A DNA stretch of 64,000 nucleotides from Coptis chinensis (lineage: Eukaryota > Streptophyta > Magnoliopsida > Ranunculales > Ranunculaceae). Of the stretch, positions 20,132 to 27,815 are shown one piece after another. A program made the translations under genes and the position numbers. Where the stretch lies: assembly GCA_015680905.1 (NCBI GenBank), contig CM027377.1, positions 13,416,501 to 13,480,500 of the forward strand. Direction: 5' to 3'. The first letter of the stretch is position 1. Each line of letters begins with the position of its first letter. The notes beneath the pieces were generated by a model. The model saw only the letters and a program-made list of their open reading frames with translations, did not search any database and was not told where the DNA came from.

Positions 20132-20499
20132 GATACATGGTGGTTTCCATCGATGTGAGAAGATCCCATTTTTTCTGCTTATTTATGCACCTGAATTGCT
20201 TGTCATTTTTGAAACTATTATTGAGTTTCTTGTATGTACTTGCGGATTTGATTCATTGGGCCAAGTAAGAGCCATGTTTAAAATAGGGATGTATGCCAAT
20301 CTTTTTCCTGACATATTCAAAGAACGAGAGGTATTTCAATGTCTAAGAGTATTTGCAATGCAGGGAAAAAAGGAGGGTTTGTGACTTTTTTCACCGGGTT
20401 GGGACCAAAAACGTTGTGCAATGTAGGGGTGAAAAACCGCGTGACTATTTTCCCCAGTTCAAAACAAGGTGAAACCTTCTACCGAGATAGTGACTGACT

Positions 20500-20580
20500 T
20501 GTTAACTTCGGACGGGATGTTGGATTCCGTCTGGATTACAAAACTCACCAGATGGAATCCAATATCCTGTCCGTAGTCAA
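20500..20580. repeat. left subterminal palindromes of the Harbinger element
   Basis: The sequence around GGACGGGATGTTGGATTCCG and its inverted partner near 20550-20575 (CAGATGGAATCCAATATCC) form imperfect palindromes. Related palindromes with the core GACGG-ATGTTACAT-CCGTC recur at about 24010-24035 and 27590-27690. Their repetition at both ends of the element suggests transposase-binding or structural subterminal repeats. Confidence 0.6.
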
Positions 20581-20730
20581 CGGTCAGAAAGTCAGAACGG
20601 TAAAAAACGGTCAAAATAAAAAACTTTTGTATATATACAATATTTGTTTCATTTCAACTCACACTTCCAACAATCATATATCATATTTCTTCTTCTTTAA
20701 AATCAGTTCTTAAAAAAAACAAAATATCAA

Positions 20731-21866
20731 ATGGCATCAACTCAAGCATCTCAAGCAAGTGGTAGCACTCAAGCAAAAGCGAAAACTCACTTTAGCATGT
20801 CCGATGATCAAGCTCTATGTCTTGCTTGAATAAAAATTAATGAAGACTTCATTGTTGGTGCTTTCCAAAATGCAAATGGATTTTGGAATCGTGTAGCAAA
20901 CGAGTTCAATCAAGTACGTGGGTCGGATAGGTCTTCCGATTCAATTAGCGGTAGGTGGAAATATATTTCAAAAATGATGAACAAGTTTGTTGCAATTGTG
21001 AATGCGGTGGAGGCTCGACATGCAAGTGGTACAACAATACAAAGCCGGGTAATTACAACGTTGTCAATTTGAAATTTATTGATTATCTTAGTCTTAGTCT
21101 AATTATTTCCGTCTTAGTCTAATTATCTTAGTGTATTTATTATTTCCATTTTAGTCTTAGTCTAATTATTATCTTAGTCTAATTATTATTTTAGTTTAAT
21201 TATCTTAGTCTTAGTGATTATTTTAGTCTAATTACCACCATTTTATTTTTTAGTTGTTCGAGGCAAGGATGACGTACCAACTACAAGAAAAATTGGCTTT
21301 TTCACTTTATCATTGTTACGTTATACTCAAGGATAATCCAAAGTGGAGTAACGTTTTTGAGGCAAGGTCAAGCCGCCCCACAAAGGGAAAAGGTTGCAAA
21401 AATGATGGTGAAGATTCAACTTCTAATTCACCAAGTGTTGGTGGAGTTGAATTAGAGGGTTCTCAAGAAATAGAGCATCCAAAAGAAATGGAGCGTCCTC
21501 TTGGATCAAAGAAAGTCAAGTCCAAAAGGAACCAAGAAAAATCAGTTGGTATGTTGAAGGGTTACTTTACACGTTTAAATGATACATTTTCACATGATTC
21601 AAATGAAACACAAAAATGCTTAGAACTTAGGGAAATGGAACTTGTATATGGTCAAAGAACTGTGATGGCAAGAGCAGAAAAAAATCAGATTCAAGCAGAA
21701 AAAAAATCAGGTTCAATTGGAAAAAATAAAATCAGCTTCAAAAGATGCAATATGAAGCTAAGATTTTAGTGACCGATACAAGTGTCCTCCATCCCGATAC
21801 TGCTTTTATAATCGAGCAACAACAAGCTGAATGGGCAAGGGCAAGAGGTGGTTCTAGTTCTAACTA
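20731..21866 (+). pseudogene. Harbinger ORF1: trihelix/NAM-associated DNA-binding protein, broken
   Basis: Exon 1 (20731-21048) starts MASTQASQASGSTQA and contains a Myb/trihelix-like block (FWNRVANEFNQVRGSDRSSD, SISGRWKYISKMMNKF). An intron with GT-AG ends separates exon 2 (from 21254: LFEARMTYQLQEKLAFSLYH, KDNPKWSNVFE), which has the NAM-associated C-terminal domain. This two-part protein accompanies plant PIF/Harbinger transposases and is needed with them for mobility. A TGA replaces the expected tryptophan codon in CLA*IKINEDF (near 20830). A frame slip near 21725 separates the tail AKILVTDTSVLHPDTAFI and EQQQAEWARA, ending at 21866. It converges on the transposase. Confidence 0.75.
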
Positions 21867-22220
21867 AGCTTATGTAATATCTAGTATTTTATTTTAATTA
21901 AAGCACTATGTATTTTAATTAATGCACTATGTATTTTAATTTCATTGTATTTTTAATTAATGAACTATGTATTTTTATCTAACTGTTTTTTTTAATTAAT
22001 GCACTATGTATGTTCTGTCCAATATAATTATTTTCATAGAAATACAATTACCAATAAAATTAAAATACATTGTAATACAGTTCATTAAAACACAACTCAT
22101 TAAATACATAAGAACTTATAAGAATTACATAGGAAATACATTAGGAAATACATAGGAAATACGTTGGAACTTAATAGTTCACGTTAGGAAATACATAGGA
22201 AATACATTTTCATTTCCATT

Positions 22221-23418
22221 TTAATTTTCGCCTCCTTCTCCCTCATCTGGATCCGACCAATTTGGATTATAAATTGGTACCGAATCTGCTGTTTCTTCAA
22301 TGTCAGTCCAATTAAAAACATGTTCAACTAAGTCCTTTTGAAGATTAGTATGCGTAACTTCATTTCTAATCTTATTTCTTGCTTTAATCATCTGATAGAC
22401 AAAATGAAAATCATCATCTTCCTGAAATAGCACAGGTATTGTTTCTTTCCTCTGACCTTTCCAATTCCAAACTCCACTTTCACGTTCATTTTCAACAATC
22501 ATATTATGCATTATAATGCATGCCTTCATTATGTCTCCAAGAACAACAACACTATGACAACGCGCAGAAGCCTTAACAATATGCCATCGTGCCTGCAAAA
22601 CTCCAAATGTCCTTTCAACATCCTTTCTTGTAGCTTATTGACGTTGAGTAAAGATCTTTTCATGTTTATTTCTTGGATAACGAATGGCTTGAACAAATGT
22701 GCCCCATTTTGGGTAAATACCATTAGCAAGATAATATCCCATATCATAGTCATTACCATTCACATTAAATGCAACAGAAGGAGCCTCACCTTGCTCTAAT
22801 GATTCAAAAACATGAGAACGATGAAGCACGTTAATGTCATTATGCGAACCTGGTAAGTCGAAGAAGCAATACCAGATCCAACAATGTTTGTCTCCAATGG
22901 CTTCAAGTATCAAAGTTGGTTCCTTCTTGTACCCTACATGTGTTCCAGCCCATCCACTTGGACAATTCTTCCACACCCAATGCATACAGTCGATTGATCC
23001 AAGCATTCCTGGAAAACCCCTTGCCGCATTTTCAGCTAATATCCTAGCAGTGTTTGCCTCAGTTGGTCGTCTCAAGTACTCTTTCTCAAACGCCGTGATT
23101 ATTGCCTTGCACCAACGCTTCATAGATACATTTGTTGTGGAATCTCCAATTTGTAAATACTCATCCGTTGAATCAGAAGAACAACCAGTTGCTAATTGTG
23201 CAACTGCAGCTAGTCCCTTCAGAACCCGAAATTGCTTGCCGACCCAATCCATCCACCTTGTCTTTAAAGTAATCGTCGAATGATGCAACAGTATGCAACA
23301 TATACATAAATAACTCTCTTGTCATCCTGTATCTTCGTCTAAACTTATGAGGAGGCCACCTACAAGGTGTTGTGAAGTAATCCCTCATTATCTTTTGTTT
23401 CTTCGAAATCACCACCAT
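22221..23418 (-). pseudogene. Harbinger DDE transposase (DDE_4 / HARBI1-like), broken
   Basis: Minus-strand coding sequence of about 400 codons. The N-terminal part has FRRRYRMTRELFMYML. The catalytic core shows the first aspartate in GSIDCMHWVWKNCPSGW, the second in DLPGSHNDINVL, and the glutamate in KDVERTFGVLQARW, i.e. the DDE triad of PIF/Harbinger nucleases. The C-terminal end is YNPNWSDPDEGEGGEN. Two defects are seen: a frame slip near 23240 between FKDKVDGLGRQ and FRVLKGLAAVAQLA, and an in-frame TAA near 22637 just before ATRKDVER. All three catalytic residues are preserved, suggesting loss of function is not very old. Start at 23418 is the first ATG in frame; a slightly longer N-terminus is possible. 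Confidence 0.85.
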
Positions 23419-25607
23419 CTCTAAACGTGTACTCTCGCCGCTTCACAGATCCACCGCGTTTGTCCATCCCACATCTTCAATTTCAATGGCTGCTTGAGTC
23501 ATTAATACCCCCCAAAGAATAGATAATAACGCAACCTCCTCCTCCTCCCTTCTCACCTCATCATATCATTATGCTCATCTCTTACTCTTTCCATGTAGTC
23601 ATCTTCTTAAAGTACTAGAAGAAGACGACCCGGTAAAACCGAAGACTTAATCATTTACTACTAGATCCTCCCCATAACCTTTGGTTATATGCAATTCTTT
23701 TTTCTCTAGACATTTTTCCTATTTTTAGCTTGGTTGTGGGGAAGAAGATGGCTGTTTGTTTGTTTGATATAAAAGAAAGAAGAGTAAAACGAAATATGAA
23801 AGGTAAGGTCACATGTGATACTTCGATTTTGGTCCACTTACCAATTGACAACACATTTTATCAGATTTTTGTTCACTCTCCAAGTGACAACACATTGTAT
23901 CCAAATGTCTATCCAAATGTACCCTCAATAATTCCAATGGGCCACCATCCCCATCCATAATTCCAATGTTTTGAATAGTAAAAGATGTAGTGAGAAGGAC
24001 TTAAAAACCAGACGGAATGTTACATTCCATCTCGGTATCCCCATACATTATTCCTATCAGAACCTGTCAAAACCAAACCACCTGCAAAAATGAGTGATAT
24101 TCCATCAAAATTTTCTGTTTCAACAAAGACAGGAAATGAGTGAAACGAATGTGAAATTTTTGGAAACATACGAACTTATAAATTTTTATTTTTTTTTGCC
24201 ATAATCTCATTTGTTTTATTGACATATTCATATCCAAAACCTGCTAATATACTTTAAAAATAATAAATAAGATAAACAACAATCATGAACAACACTCAAG
24301 TCTAACACAGAAACTCAATAAAAAAACTAACTTGTAATTTCTAAAAAATTTGACATAATCTCCTTTGTTTAATGACATATTCATATCCAAAACTCATAAA
24401 AGAAAAACCTGCTAATAAAAAAGTCATTACAAACAACAATCCCAAACGCCATAAGACAAGTAATGACGCACAGCTATTACAAACTACAAAAAAATATCTA
24501 TTAAGACCTCCTCCCCCTACGAGAAGGCTCAGTCGAAGAGCTCTCCCCCCTACGTCGTTGTCGCCTCTCTGGTTGAGGTTGAGCTTGAGCTTGAGGTGTG
24601 GCACTTGCAACATTCTCCAACTCTTGCACACGTCTTTGAAGCTGCAAAGTTCGATTTCACTCTTATTGTAAGTACTCAAAACTGCGACGAGAGGACTCCA
24701 TGAAGGACTCACGCATGGCATAACTGAGAGAGTTGTAGTTAAGGAGCTCCGACCTTACTTCATCATGTTTAACAAAACAAATGCATGTTAGGGGTTATAG
24801 TGAATACTAATAATAACAAATCATTAATAAATTCAAATCATACTAACCTCGGCTAACTGCTCAAACTGTACTGACAAATCTGCTACCACTGCGACATTTA
24901 CTGGTGGAATAGGTATTCTCATATCTTGCCCCTGAGAAGTAATCATGCTCCAGTGCCAAAGGTCATCATCATCAAATATCTGTGGAGTTCTTTGCGGCAT
25001 CTGAATATCATGAAATACCCTGGGTTGTGATTGTGGCAACTCCACTCCTTCTGGGAAATGAATGTCGGGTCTCAATGCTCCAGAAGTAACCCCTTCAAAA
25101 TTGGTGCCCCGGTATAACGCACCTAGCAAGAGACCTCGACCAACCCTCTTCCAATATAAGTCATAGTCTCCCATAAAATGAAAGTCGATCGTCCCGCCAC
25201 TCATTTGGGTTTGCTCTATAGTGTGAAAGAGCAGCAGGGGAAGAATATCGAGGGCTCATCATATCTATGGGTGGTGGGTAAGGTATAACAATCTCTTCGG
25301 ATACTTGCCGCCAACATCCGTCCCCAAGGTACCATGCGAGATGTGATCGACCCTATAAGTATCATTCGGCTGAGAAAAAACCTTGCTCTATGACACATAT
25401 AAGATAGTCTACTTTTCGGTGTTCTCTAAAACATCCGAATATCCACATAAAGGGTCCGAAAGATGAAGGACTCGGCCCGGGTTGCCATTCAATTCGGGTA
25501 GCTCCTAAAAGCTCAATTTGTCGACGAAAGTGTTATGAATATTATGTGATAGGTCCTCATACCCCCTCTTTATGATGAAGCCCCCATGCTTGAATACGTG
25601 GAATCAT

Positions 25608-25610
<3 letters not shown>

Positions 25611-25684
<74 letters not shown>
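25611..25684. repeat. (TA)n microsatellite
   Basis: Uninterrupted TA dinucleotide tract of about 37 units, ending directly at the MITE. Its exact length in the genome is uncertain because such tracts assemble poorly. Confidence 0.95.
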
Positions 25685-25687
<3 letters not shown>

Positions 25688-26061
25688 GTAGGTTTCCGTT
25701 TACAACATTTTTATACAACGCTTTATACAATACCCCATTTCAAGATGTTTTAAGGGCTAATTTTTTGTAGATAAGATGTTCTCACTATGGATATAATCTC
25801 CACAAAAAATTGGGTCATTTGAACATTTCTAAGTTTGCCAAAAAAAAGTTACAAAATCGATATTTCTAAACCGTTGATAAAAATTCATAGGTTGAGAACA
25901 AATTTTCTCATGGTTAGGAGTTTTCAAATGAGCTGAATTTTTGTGGAGATGATCTCCATGGTGTGGAGATCATATCTACAAGGAATCAATGCTTAATTCA
26001 TATTTTCAAAAGGTGTTGTATAAAACGTTGTATAAAAAGTGTTGTAAACGGAACCTACCCC
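25685..26061. mobile_element. 377-bp MITE nested in the PMD segment
   Basis: The ends are long near-perfect inverted repeats: GGGGTAGGTTTCCGTTTACA at the left, and its reverse complement TGTAAACGGAACCTACCCC at the right, one base shorter. The inverted match extends inward through TATACAACG. Both sides are TATA, consistent with a TA target site in a TA microsatellite (Stowaway or other TA-targeting family). No coding capacity. Confidence 0.85.
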
Positions 26062-26192
26062 TATATATATATAAATGAAATGAAGCCCCCATGTTTGAAT
26101 ACGTGGAATCAGGTCATGAGTCTCATCATCTTCTAACCTCTTCAACACAGGATGCATCACATGAAAATGTTCGTAGAATAAATACATCAATA

Positions 26193-26196
<4 letters not shown>

Positions 26197-26270
<74 letters not shown>
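26197..26270. repeat. (TA)n microsatellite
   Basis: Second TA tract of about 37 units within the degraded PMD gene, between the IPRIQTWG piece and the conserved PMD exon. It lies in what was probably an intron of that gene. Confidence 0.95.
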
Positions 26271-26276
<6 letters not shown>

Positions 26277-27815
26277 GTCAACATTAATAATTAGATAAAT
26301 AAATGAAATGAAACAATAACTTAATAAATAAGACTTACCGGTATAATCCAAACAAAGCCGTACAAATTGCCTTTAGTGGCTTTCGTCTCAACTGCGAGGT
26401 CTAGCTAGCGGTAAAGGTATGCCAAGATGGATTGACCCTAGTCATAATCTCACATCCTCTCTACGTCTGAGACAACGACCATCCACCCGATACGTAAATA
26501 ACTATCAGCATATCCAAATAATACCGCACTAACAAAATAGAAGAGGAAGGCACGTACATACTCGTGGATCGACTCCTCACCAATATGATAGTCTTTCGGC
26601 TTCTCCTTGAGTCTATTCAAATATCTCGAAGTAAACCAACTCATATTTATAGCTCCTCCCTTAAACTGCTCAGCCGATAATCTCAAAAACCCGTCTTGCT
26701 CATCATCTTCAACCAAATCAAAACATTCAAAGAAACTCATCGCCGTAGTAAAAACCTCTAAAGTTTCATAAAAAGGAATGACATCTCCATAACCAATTGG
26801 GATACTCGTGAGCATTGTGAAATCAAGAGGGGTAATCCCAAGCTCACCCCATGGGAAATGGAATGTGTGGGTAGTTTGCCACCACCGCTCAACTATCCCA
26901 AACAACAACGCTTGATCATTTTGTCCCAAATTAGAATTCAACAAGTTCCCAAATGGTGTGGCGGATATAATGTCGGTAACCGTGACAAAATTAGGATCCG
27001 TTTTTTATTTCATACAACGCCACCACGACACAACATTTGAAAGTGCACAACGCACTTTCCATAGGTGTACTTCCTACATTCAACCAATACGCAATACGAT
27101 ATAATTACAACTAATTTTTTTTTTAAACAATGCGACAAATTCAAACTAATTACACAACAACAAACTTGATATAAACTAACATAAATAATAATAATTAACA
27201 TAAAAAAAAAATCAAAAACTTATTTAAGACTCCGCAACTCGATTTGCTATATGTCGGACCGATGTTGACGCTAAAGGTGGGTGTTTCTCGATTTCACAAC
27301 GCGGTGGAAAATTGAACCCAAGTTCAATTTCGTCCTCCTCGCCCACATTACGCGTTCTTGACGATGATCTTTTTTGCCCCATTTTTTTGGAAATTTTGAC
27401 ATTTCCAAACCATCGAGAATGCTCTTCATGTGGTGAGGTTGGTGGGGATGTATTTGGGGGTGGAGAAGTCATTAGGAATGGAAGTTTGTGTCAAAAACTT
27501 GTTAATGGAGGCTAGAAAATCACAATTTTGGATGGGAAGGAAGTGAAAATAGAGTCTGTTCGCGTTTGTTCATATAGAGTCATCAGACGGGATGTTACAT
27601 CCCGTCTCGTTATAAAATACCAGACGGATATTACATTCCGTCTCAATAAAAAACCTCAAGACGAAATCTAACATCCTATCCGGGATATTTTATTCACATT
27701 TGCATTGCACAACTTCAACTTGTTTTTCACCGTTTTGGTGAAAAGGGGGTGAATAAGTGATGAGGTGGCGGTGAATAGGGGGGGAAAACTTTCACCTGCA
27801 TTGCAAATGCTCTAA

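Follow-up and report, generated by a model that had tools for sequence, protein, structure and literature searches.

We analysed a 64,000-nucleotide stretch of the Coptis chinensis genome (assembly GCA_015680905.1, contig CM027377.1, positions 13,416,501 to 13,480,500), hereafter the window. It contains a PIF/Harbinger DNA transposon at positions 20347-27812, in which open reading frame 1 (ORF1, plus strand), the transposase (minus strand) and a plant mobile domain (PMD) gene (minus strand) follow one another up to the right end (Table 1). An initial annotation had given the element these boundaries, with 18-bp terminal inverted repeats and TAA target duplications; all are exact in the sequence, the right repeat being identical to the reverse complement of the left one at 17 of 18 bases. 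As a whole, the locus and its relatives are probably best explained by a PIF/Harbinger family of a few hundred copies in which PMD is a regular third gene, a capture of this gene and its action in trans being proposed parts of this explanation.

Several features place the element among PIF/Harbinger transposons. The target-site duplication is 3 bp long and AT-rich (TWA), i.e. TTA or TAA in the window and in 15 of 20 other copies fetched from the same genome (935.6 Mb in 116 contigs), these 20 being the best-ranked of 39 other copies that match the PMD part. The GAGCATTTGCAATGCAGG type ends are short inverted repeats starting with A or G. A DDE transposase of the Harbinger family is predicted from the Pfam profile PF04827, which matches the minus strand at 22635-23321 (E=4.3e-61) and continues at 22221-22634 (E=1.3e-19); on the majority columns of 16 copies it forms a single open frame of 543 codons. 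For the Myb/SANT-type second protein, the NAM-associated profile PF14303 matches exon 2 of ORF1 (21254-21769, plus strand, E=1.2e-11), and the fragment of the first exon that was scanned has no Pfam match. By Pfam, the two ORFs that the initial annotation listed as usual for Harbinger elements are a transposase and an ORF1-type gene. No reverse transcriptase domain of the kind that would indicate a Ty3/Gypsy element was found in the eight ORFs scanned out of 36 listed, and the ends are terminal inverted repeats. The Harbinger transposase, the 3-bp duplication and a PMD in its own reading frame also distinguish the element from a Mutator-like element (MULE) with PMD. The left subterminal repeats are possible binding sites for ORF1 or the transposase. 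A Rfam scan of the window gave no match.

The profile PF10536 matches the window at 26450-27004 on the minus strand (E=1e-13, 51.6 bits), and the stop-free exon 2 of another copy, L040, reaches 80.9 bits (E=1.3e-22), both above the Pfam cut-off of 34.9. Exon 3 of copy L010, taken alone, lies under this cut-off (E=7e-5, 22.6 bits). The minus-strand PMD gene that the initial annotation placed between the transposase and the right end is therefore present, as are the peptides quoted for it, but the exon from which they come is only one part of a larger multi-exon gene, whose splicing was deduced from the sequence alone. PMD domains are very numerous in the genome (3774 first-look candidates in a PF10536 search). 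Five of six other PMD loci fetched from it share 20-29% amino-acid identity with exon 2 of the Harbinger PMD; the sixth (L032) has no match to this exon and fits mainly the later part of the profile. A search of the PDB with exon 2 gave one weak match, to ribosomal protein L17 (E=0.017), which we took as chance.

The window copy itself is disabled. Its PMD exons 1 and 2 contain stops, the splice donor of exon 1 is mutated and exon 3 is frameshifted, while the transposase and ORF1 contain stops and frameshifts. Exon 3 is also broken by a TA-flanked inverted-repeat insertion (about 25610-26079), missing from all fetched copies that align through these positions. The sides of this insertion (window 25575-26114) are a 35-bp duplication of element sequence, far beyond the usual length of a target duplication. 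As it is present in the window copy only among the fetched copies, this AT-rich segment, which splits the PMD gene, was ruled out both as a part of that gene and as its source.

Table 1. Features of the PIF/Harbinger element in the window, with the basis of each assignment
Feature	Position	Strand	Basis
Target-site duplication TAA, left	20344..20346		read from sequence; like the duplications in 15/20 fetched copies
Left terminal inverted repeat, GAGTATTTGCAATGCAGG	20347..20364	+	sequence; same ends in copies
Left subterminal repeats, GACGGGATGTTGGATTCCGTCT type	20509..20585		repeat comparison
ORF1 gene, two exons, NAM-associated, putatively Myb-like	20731..21865 (approximate ends)	+	Pfam PF14303; frames open on majority columns of 16 copies
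Harbinger transposase, Plant_tran PF04827	22221..23442 (5' end approximate)	-	Pfam and majority-column frame
Internal copy of right-end subterminal repeat	24009..24038		between transposase and PMD
PMD probable last exon, C-terminal tail	24341..24754 (approximate ends)	-	open on majority columns of 16 copies
PMD exon 3, PF10536 positions 180-286 in copy L010	24860..26187	-	Pfam on L010, tblastn; split here by the nested insertion
Nested insertion	25610..26079		TA repeats around a 174-nt inverted repeat pair
PMD exon 2, PF10536 positions 15-179	26339..27073	-	Pfam E=1e-13 in window, E=1.3e-22 in L040
PMD exon 1, proline-rich start (MTSPPP...)	27227..27472	-	sequence of copies; GT-AG intron next in other copies
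Right subterminal repeats	27584..27685		repeat comparison
Right terminal inverted repeat	27795..27812	-	sequence; same ends in copies
Target-site duplication TAA, right	27813..27815		read from sequence

Copies of the element across the genome

We searched for related copies with two DNA queries. With the left 600 bases as query, 1156 first-look candidates were obtained, and with the PMD part, 484; all 40 candidates scored for each query were matches, at 92-100% identity for the PMD part. Among the 20 PMD-match copies fetched, the 15 mentioned above retain both ends, with TTA or TAA duplications that are identical on the two sides. They can be aligned over their whole length, some with internal gaps, and PMD occupies the same position in them. 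The other five (L012, L013, L023, L024 and L028) lack one or both recognisable ends. From the left-end matches, L029 and L030 contain PMD, and in L031 the match extends up to the last part of the PMD gene, beyond which other sequence begins. L002 is a short deletion derivative with both ends, a TAA duplication and the ORF1 part, without transposase or PMD, which presumably moved in trans.

To count the three genes across the whole genome, we used conserved 32-base tags with up to 3 mismatches allowed. We found 345 matches for ORF1, 300 for the transposase and 326 for PMD exon 2, against 0 for each reversed control, which excludes chance. As exact places were known for the first 100 matches per tag, the pairing of tags was done on the zone from C1 to C5:29.2 Mb. 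This zone contains 89 exact transposase tags; for 71 of them an exact PMD tag lies in the same orientation no further than 20 kb away, the distance being 2.5-3.6 kb in 64 cases. No pair in opposite orientation was found within 20 kb. Conversely, of the 100 exact places listed for the PMD tag, 70 could be paired with a transposase tag and another 18 with an ORF1 tag or a match to the transposase profile, so that for at least 88 a transposase or ORF1 counterpart lies no more than 20 kb away. This figure is a lower bound, as the pairing of the 18 drew on places preselected for apparent proximity, namely 20 of 100 for ORF1 and 7 of 150 for the profile.

Starting from the left ends, 11 of 18 in the zone are followed downstream by a PMD tag in the same orientation, where about 0.002 per end would be expected; in nine cases the distance is 5.2-6.3 kb. 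Among the other seven, L029 and L048 contain PMD without the exact tag, L002 is deleted, L031 is interrupted, and at C4:53228423 (L008, 3.6 kb fetched) the match ends after element position 1363; the remaining two, like the 12 unpaired PMD tags out of 100, lie outside the fetched set. A missing exact tag does not mean a missing gene, because the untagged L048 (C3:93636278) contains the PMD part and a right end. The search for further copies with the same terminal repeats and the count of transposase and PMD at a constant position, both proposed in the initial annotation, thus gave a consistent answer: PMD is not confined to one copy, the outcome that this annotation had set against its own proposal, but occurs at the same place in many.

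Subfamilies and origin of the PMD segment

One copy, L029, has a left part of the main family and a right part, including PMD, only about 79% identical to it. No relative of this right part above 86% was found among 40 scored matches, and L029 is a chimera that also involves an older subfamily. When its diverged right part was used as a query, a second subfamily (L038-L044 and L046) and a further copy, L047, were retrieved. Several copies of the second subfamily (L038-L044, L046) show small frameshifts, some compensated nearby, in an otherwise well-kept PMD exon 2; these could be true indels or could stem from the assembly. Both L046 and L047 are full-length copies that carry TTA and TAA duplications and share the layout of the window element; L047 is an older copy with slightly different ends, and its identity to the window element is 84% along the whole length. 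The family has ends of the cut-and-paste type with TTA/TAA duplications, and the order, orientation and spacing of ORF1, transposase and PMD are fixed in the main family and two further subfamilies. As L046 and L047 share this layout, PMD was present before the subfamilies split.

A tree of 19 copies is nearly star-shaped, with terminal branches summing to 0.53 and inner branches to 0.12 substitutions per site, the latter sum including 0.076 for L029's own branch, displaced by rooting. This shape is consistent with a single main burst, which at the substitution rates usual in plants would probably date to a few million years ago. Per site, C to T changes outnumber A to G changes several-fold, with CG and CHG sites affected most often, a mark that would be expected of methylated, silenced copies.

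The right-end subterminal repeat that recurs internally between the transposase and PMD is not peculiar to the window copy: each of the five other main-family copies checked has one or two units of it, and L047 has it too. Its presence hints, without proving it, at an older right end in this place and at the adoption of a second one on the far side of the PMD gene. In such a capture, transposition would have used a right end beyond an intron-containing plant PMD gene and enclosed it, leaving the older right-end repeats stranded between transposase and PMD. The introns retained in the gene argue for its capture as genomic DNA. No PMD-less ancestor of the element was found, although no thorough search was made for one. 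The stable Harbinger-PMD element proposed in the initial annotation is well supported; the acquisition of PMD by this lineage is inferred from its absence in the usual two-gene Harbinger plan and from the right-end-type repeats inside the element.

The same boundary repeat at 24009 could also be the trace of a separate PMD-bearing element that landed in one Harbinger copy or its ancestor, and the window copy does contain a nested insertion. That insertion, however, is the one of the window copy and splits the PMD gene. Moreover, the position of PMD is the same in the main-family full-length copies, in L046 and in L047, which refutes a recent event of this kind; for an ancient one, inner ends would have to turn up in a very old relative. 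Allowing 3 mismatches at most, we found no inner pair of the family's terminal inverted repeats around PMD, in a scan confined to this type of end, so the initial annotation's other contrary outcome, a PMD segment with its own terminal repeats and duplication, was not encountered. We therefore regard such a nested origin as very improbable.

Probable selection on the PMD coding sequence

Single-pair ratios of nonsynonymous to synonymous rates (0.56-0.97 for L029 against 22 other copies) were dropped as uninformative because neutral decay after insertion dominates them. We instead compared singleton changes, i.e. those arisen after insertion, with inherited changes common to three or more of 16 aligned full-length copies. 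Copies are not independent in these statistics. For the PMD exons, the ratio of nonsynonymous to synonymous changes is 73:41 among inherited changes against 367:98 among singletons (p=0.0014), and for the best-aligned exons 1 and 2 alone it is 14:13 against 161:39 (p=0.0024). Differences of the PMD exons from L047 point the same way (96:43, p=0.022). The signal holds at thresholds of 2, 3 and 4 copies and without CpG sites (p=0.00007 to 0.023 in six variants). Singleton rates are alike in coding (0.163-0.239 per region) and non-coding DNA (0.207), as neutral decay after insertion predicts. Divergence from L047 amounts to 6.7% of sites in PMD exons, 5.6% in the transposase and 4.9% in ORF1 against 10.2% in non-coding DNA (p=7e-5 for PMD exons vs. 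non-coding DNA). Fixed differences between the main family and the second subfamily go in the same direction but are few (12/963 coding vs. 8/171 non-coding, p=0.006). As inherited changes in PMD exons are poorer in amino-acid changes, purifying selection on the gene is probable. A coding constraint on PMD during amplification is thus supported by one kind of test, and there is moderate evidence that PMD would have been functional while the family spread.

Several observations weigh against a PMD gene maintained as a regular part of the element. First, stops or frameshifts were found in all 18 full-length copies checked among those fetched (16 of the main family, L046 and L047), a count that is rough in exon 3 and the transposase, where the alignment is gappy. 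Second, at one early codon of exon 2, 14 of 23 copies read TAA, eight TCA or TCT and one AAA; L047 also has a stop there, and several copies of the second subfamily a serine. Either the functional protein does not include this stretch, or PMD was already split in many copies as they spread; a later splice acceptor bypassing the TAA codon was weighed from the sequence, the changes being too few to decide. Third, neither the transposase (59:25 inherited vs. 239:79 singletons, p=0.40; L047 comparison, p=1.0) nor ORF1 (13:5 vs. 137:37, p=0.55; L047 comparison, p=0.057) gave a significant signal when tested in this way, so peculiarities of the method could account for a part of what is seen in PMD. 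The differences from L047 in PMD exons 3 and 4 also show little codon-position bias. Finally, the 117 best-scored PMD places (3774 candidates) and the 150 best-scored Harbinger transposases (2426 candidates) nowhere come within 12 kb of each other; other transposon families or genes therefore probably hold many of the PMDs.

If PMD had been enclosed once by chance and copied ever since because the ends lie outside it, without benefit to the element, the widespread damage, the frequent stop in exon 2, the mobility of L002 without PMD and transposase, and the lack of a significant signal in the transposase itself would be accounted for. The depletion of amino-acid changes among inherited changes, the lower divergence of PMD exons than of non-coding DNA from L047, and PMD tags as frequent genome-wide as transposase tags speak against such a passenger, which we judge unlikely.

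Known systems and the possible role of PMD

PIF/Harbinger elements are described with ORF1 plus a transposase (PMC4482050). The present family resembles them by its 3-bp AT-rich target duplication, its short terminal repeat starting with G, its Harbinger transposase and its second ORF, probably of the Myb/NAM-associated kind, and differs by a third, intron-bearing gene, PMD, of about 3 kb between the transposase and the right end. PMD genes have been reported in other mobile elements. MULEs acquired PMD in two captures (Ikeda 2017, PMC5418596), and the authors speculate on anti-silencing; in these DNA transposons, known from several grasses and Amborella, the captured PMD-C is fused to the MULE transposase, whereas here PMD is a gene in its own frame and the target duplication has 3 bp. 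In Ty3/Gypsy (Ogre-type) elements (PMC6317226, PMC9289625), PMD is also an extra ORF, but of a retrotransposon rather than a DNA transposon. Harbinger-type transposons with epigenetics-related cargo are likewise known, namely Harbinger with TET/JBP in fungi and HarbingerS with a SET methyltransferase in oomycetes (PMC12730594); both cargo and hosts differ from ours. The literature found contains no report of a Harbinger with PMD, with Repbase and most subscription journals outside the search; by word search, PMC5418596 contains neither 'Harbinger' nor 'PIF', and PMC7264820 and PMC8978399 contain no PMD.

Known PMD proteins influence silencing and gene expression (PMC5418596, PMC7156037), MAIN and MAIL1 working there with PP7L (PMC8616336, PMC7156037, PMC5418596). 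That transposons use PMD proteins against silencing has been suggested by authors in this field (PMC8616336, PMC5418596). The Harbinger PMD protein would act in trans, most likely by interfering with or redirecting a host pathway of the MAIN/MAIL-PP7L type, so that the element would be expressed. An element-coded counter-silencing protein has a parallel in VANDAL/VANC (mentioned in PMC8616336 and PMC12730594), where the anti-silencing function is demonstrated; the likeness would lie in the suggested mode of action. Selection on the PMD coding sequence is supported but says nothing of function, and the evasion of host silencing suggested in the initial annotation would be a plausible role for the Harbinger PMD.

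A PMD protein that belongs to the transposition machinery, for example as a DNA-binding or host-factor adaptor instead of a silencing modulator, could also account for the coding constraint and for tag numbers near one-to-one with the transposase, and the molecular function of PMD is not established in print (PMC8616336). However, Harbinger mobilization is reported to need two element proteins, ORF1 and the transposase (PMC2836001), and the effects of known PMD proteins cited above are on silencing and gene expression. We hold this machinery role to be rather doubtful. The more specific proposal that Harbinger is a further superfamily with an independent PMD uptake, kept by purifying selection across subfamilies because PMD counteracts or redirects MAIN/MAIL-PP7L silencing, is put forward tentatively, as a possibility that may well prove wrong.

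PMD genes thus recur in unrelated transposon types. This compact three-gene Harbinger family numbers hundreds of copies, and its PMD is diverged, lies in its own frame and bears a measurable mark of selection. It offers a tractable system in which the proposed counter-silencing by PMD proteins could be tested independently of MULE and Ty3 elements.

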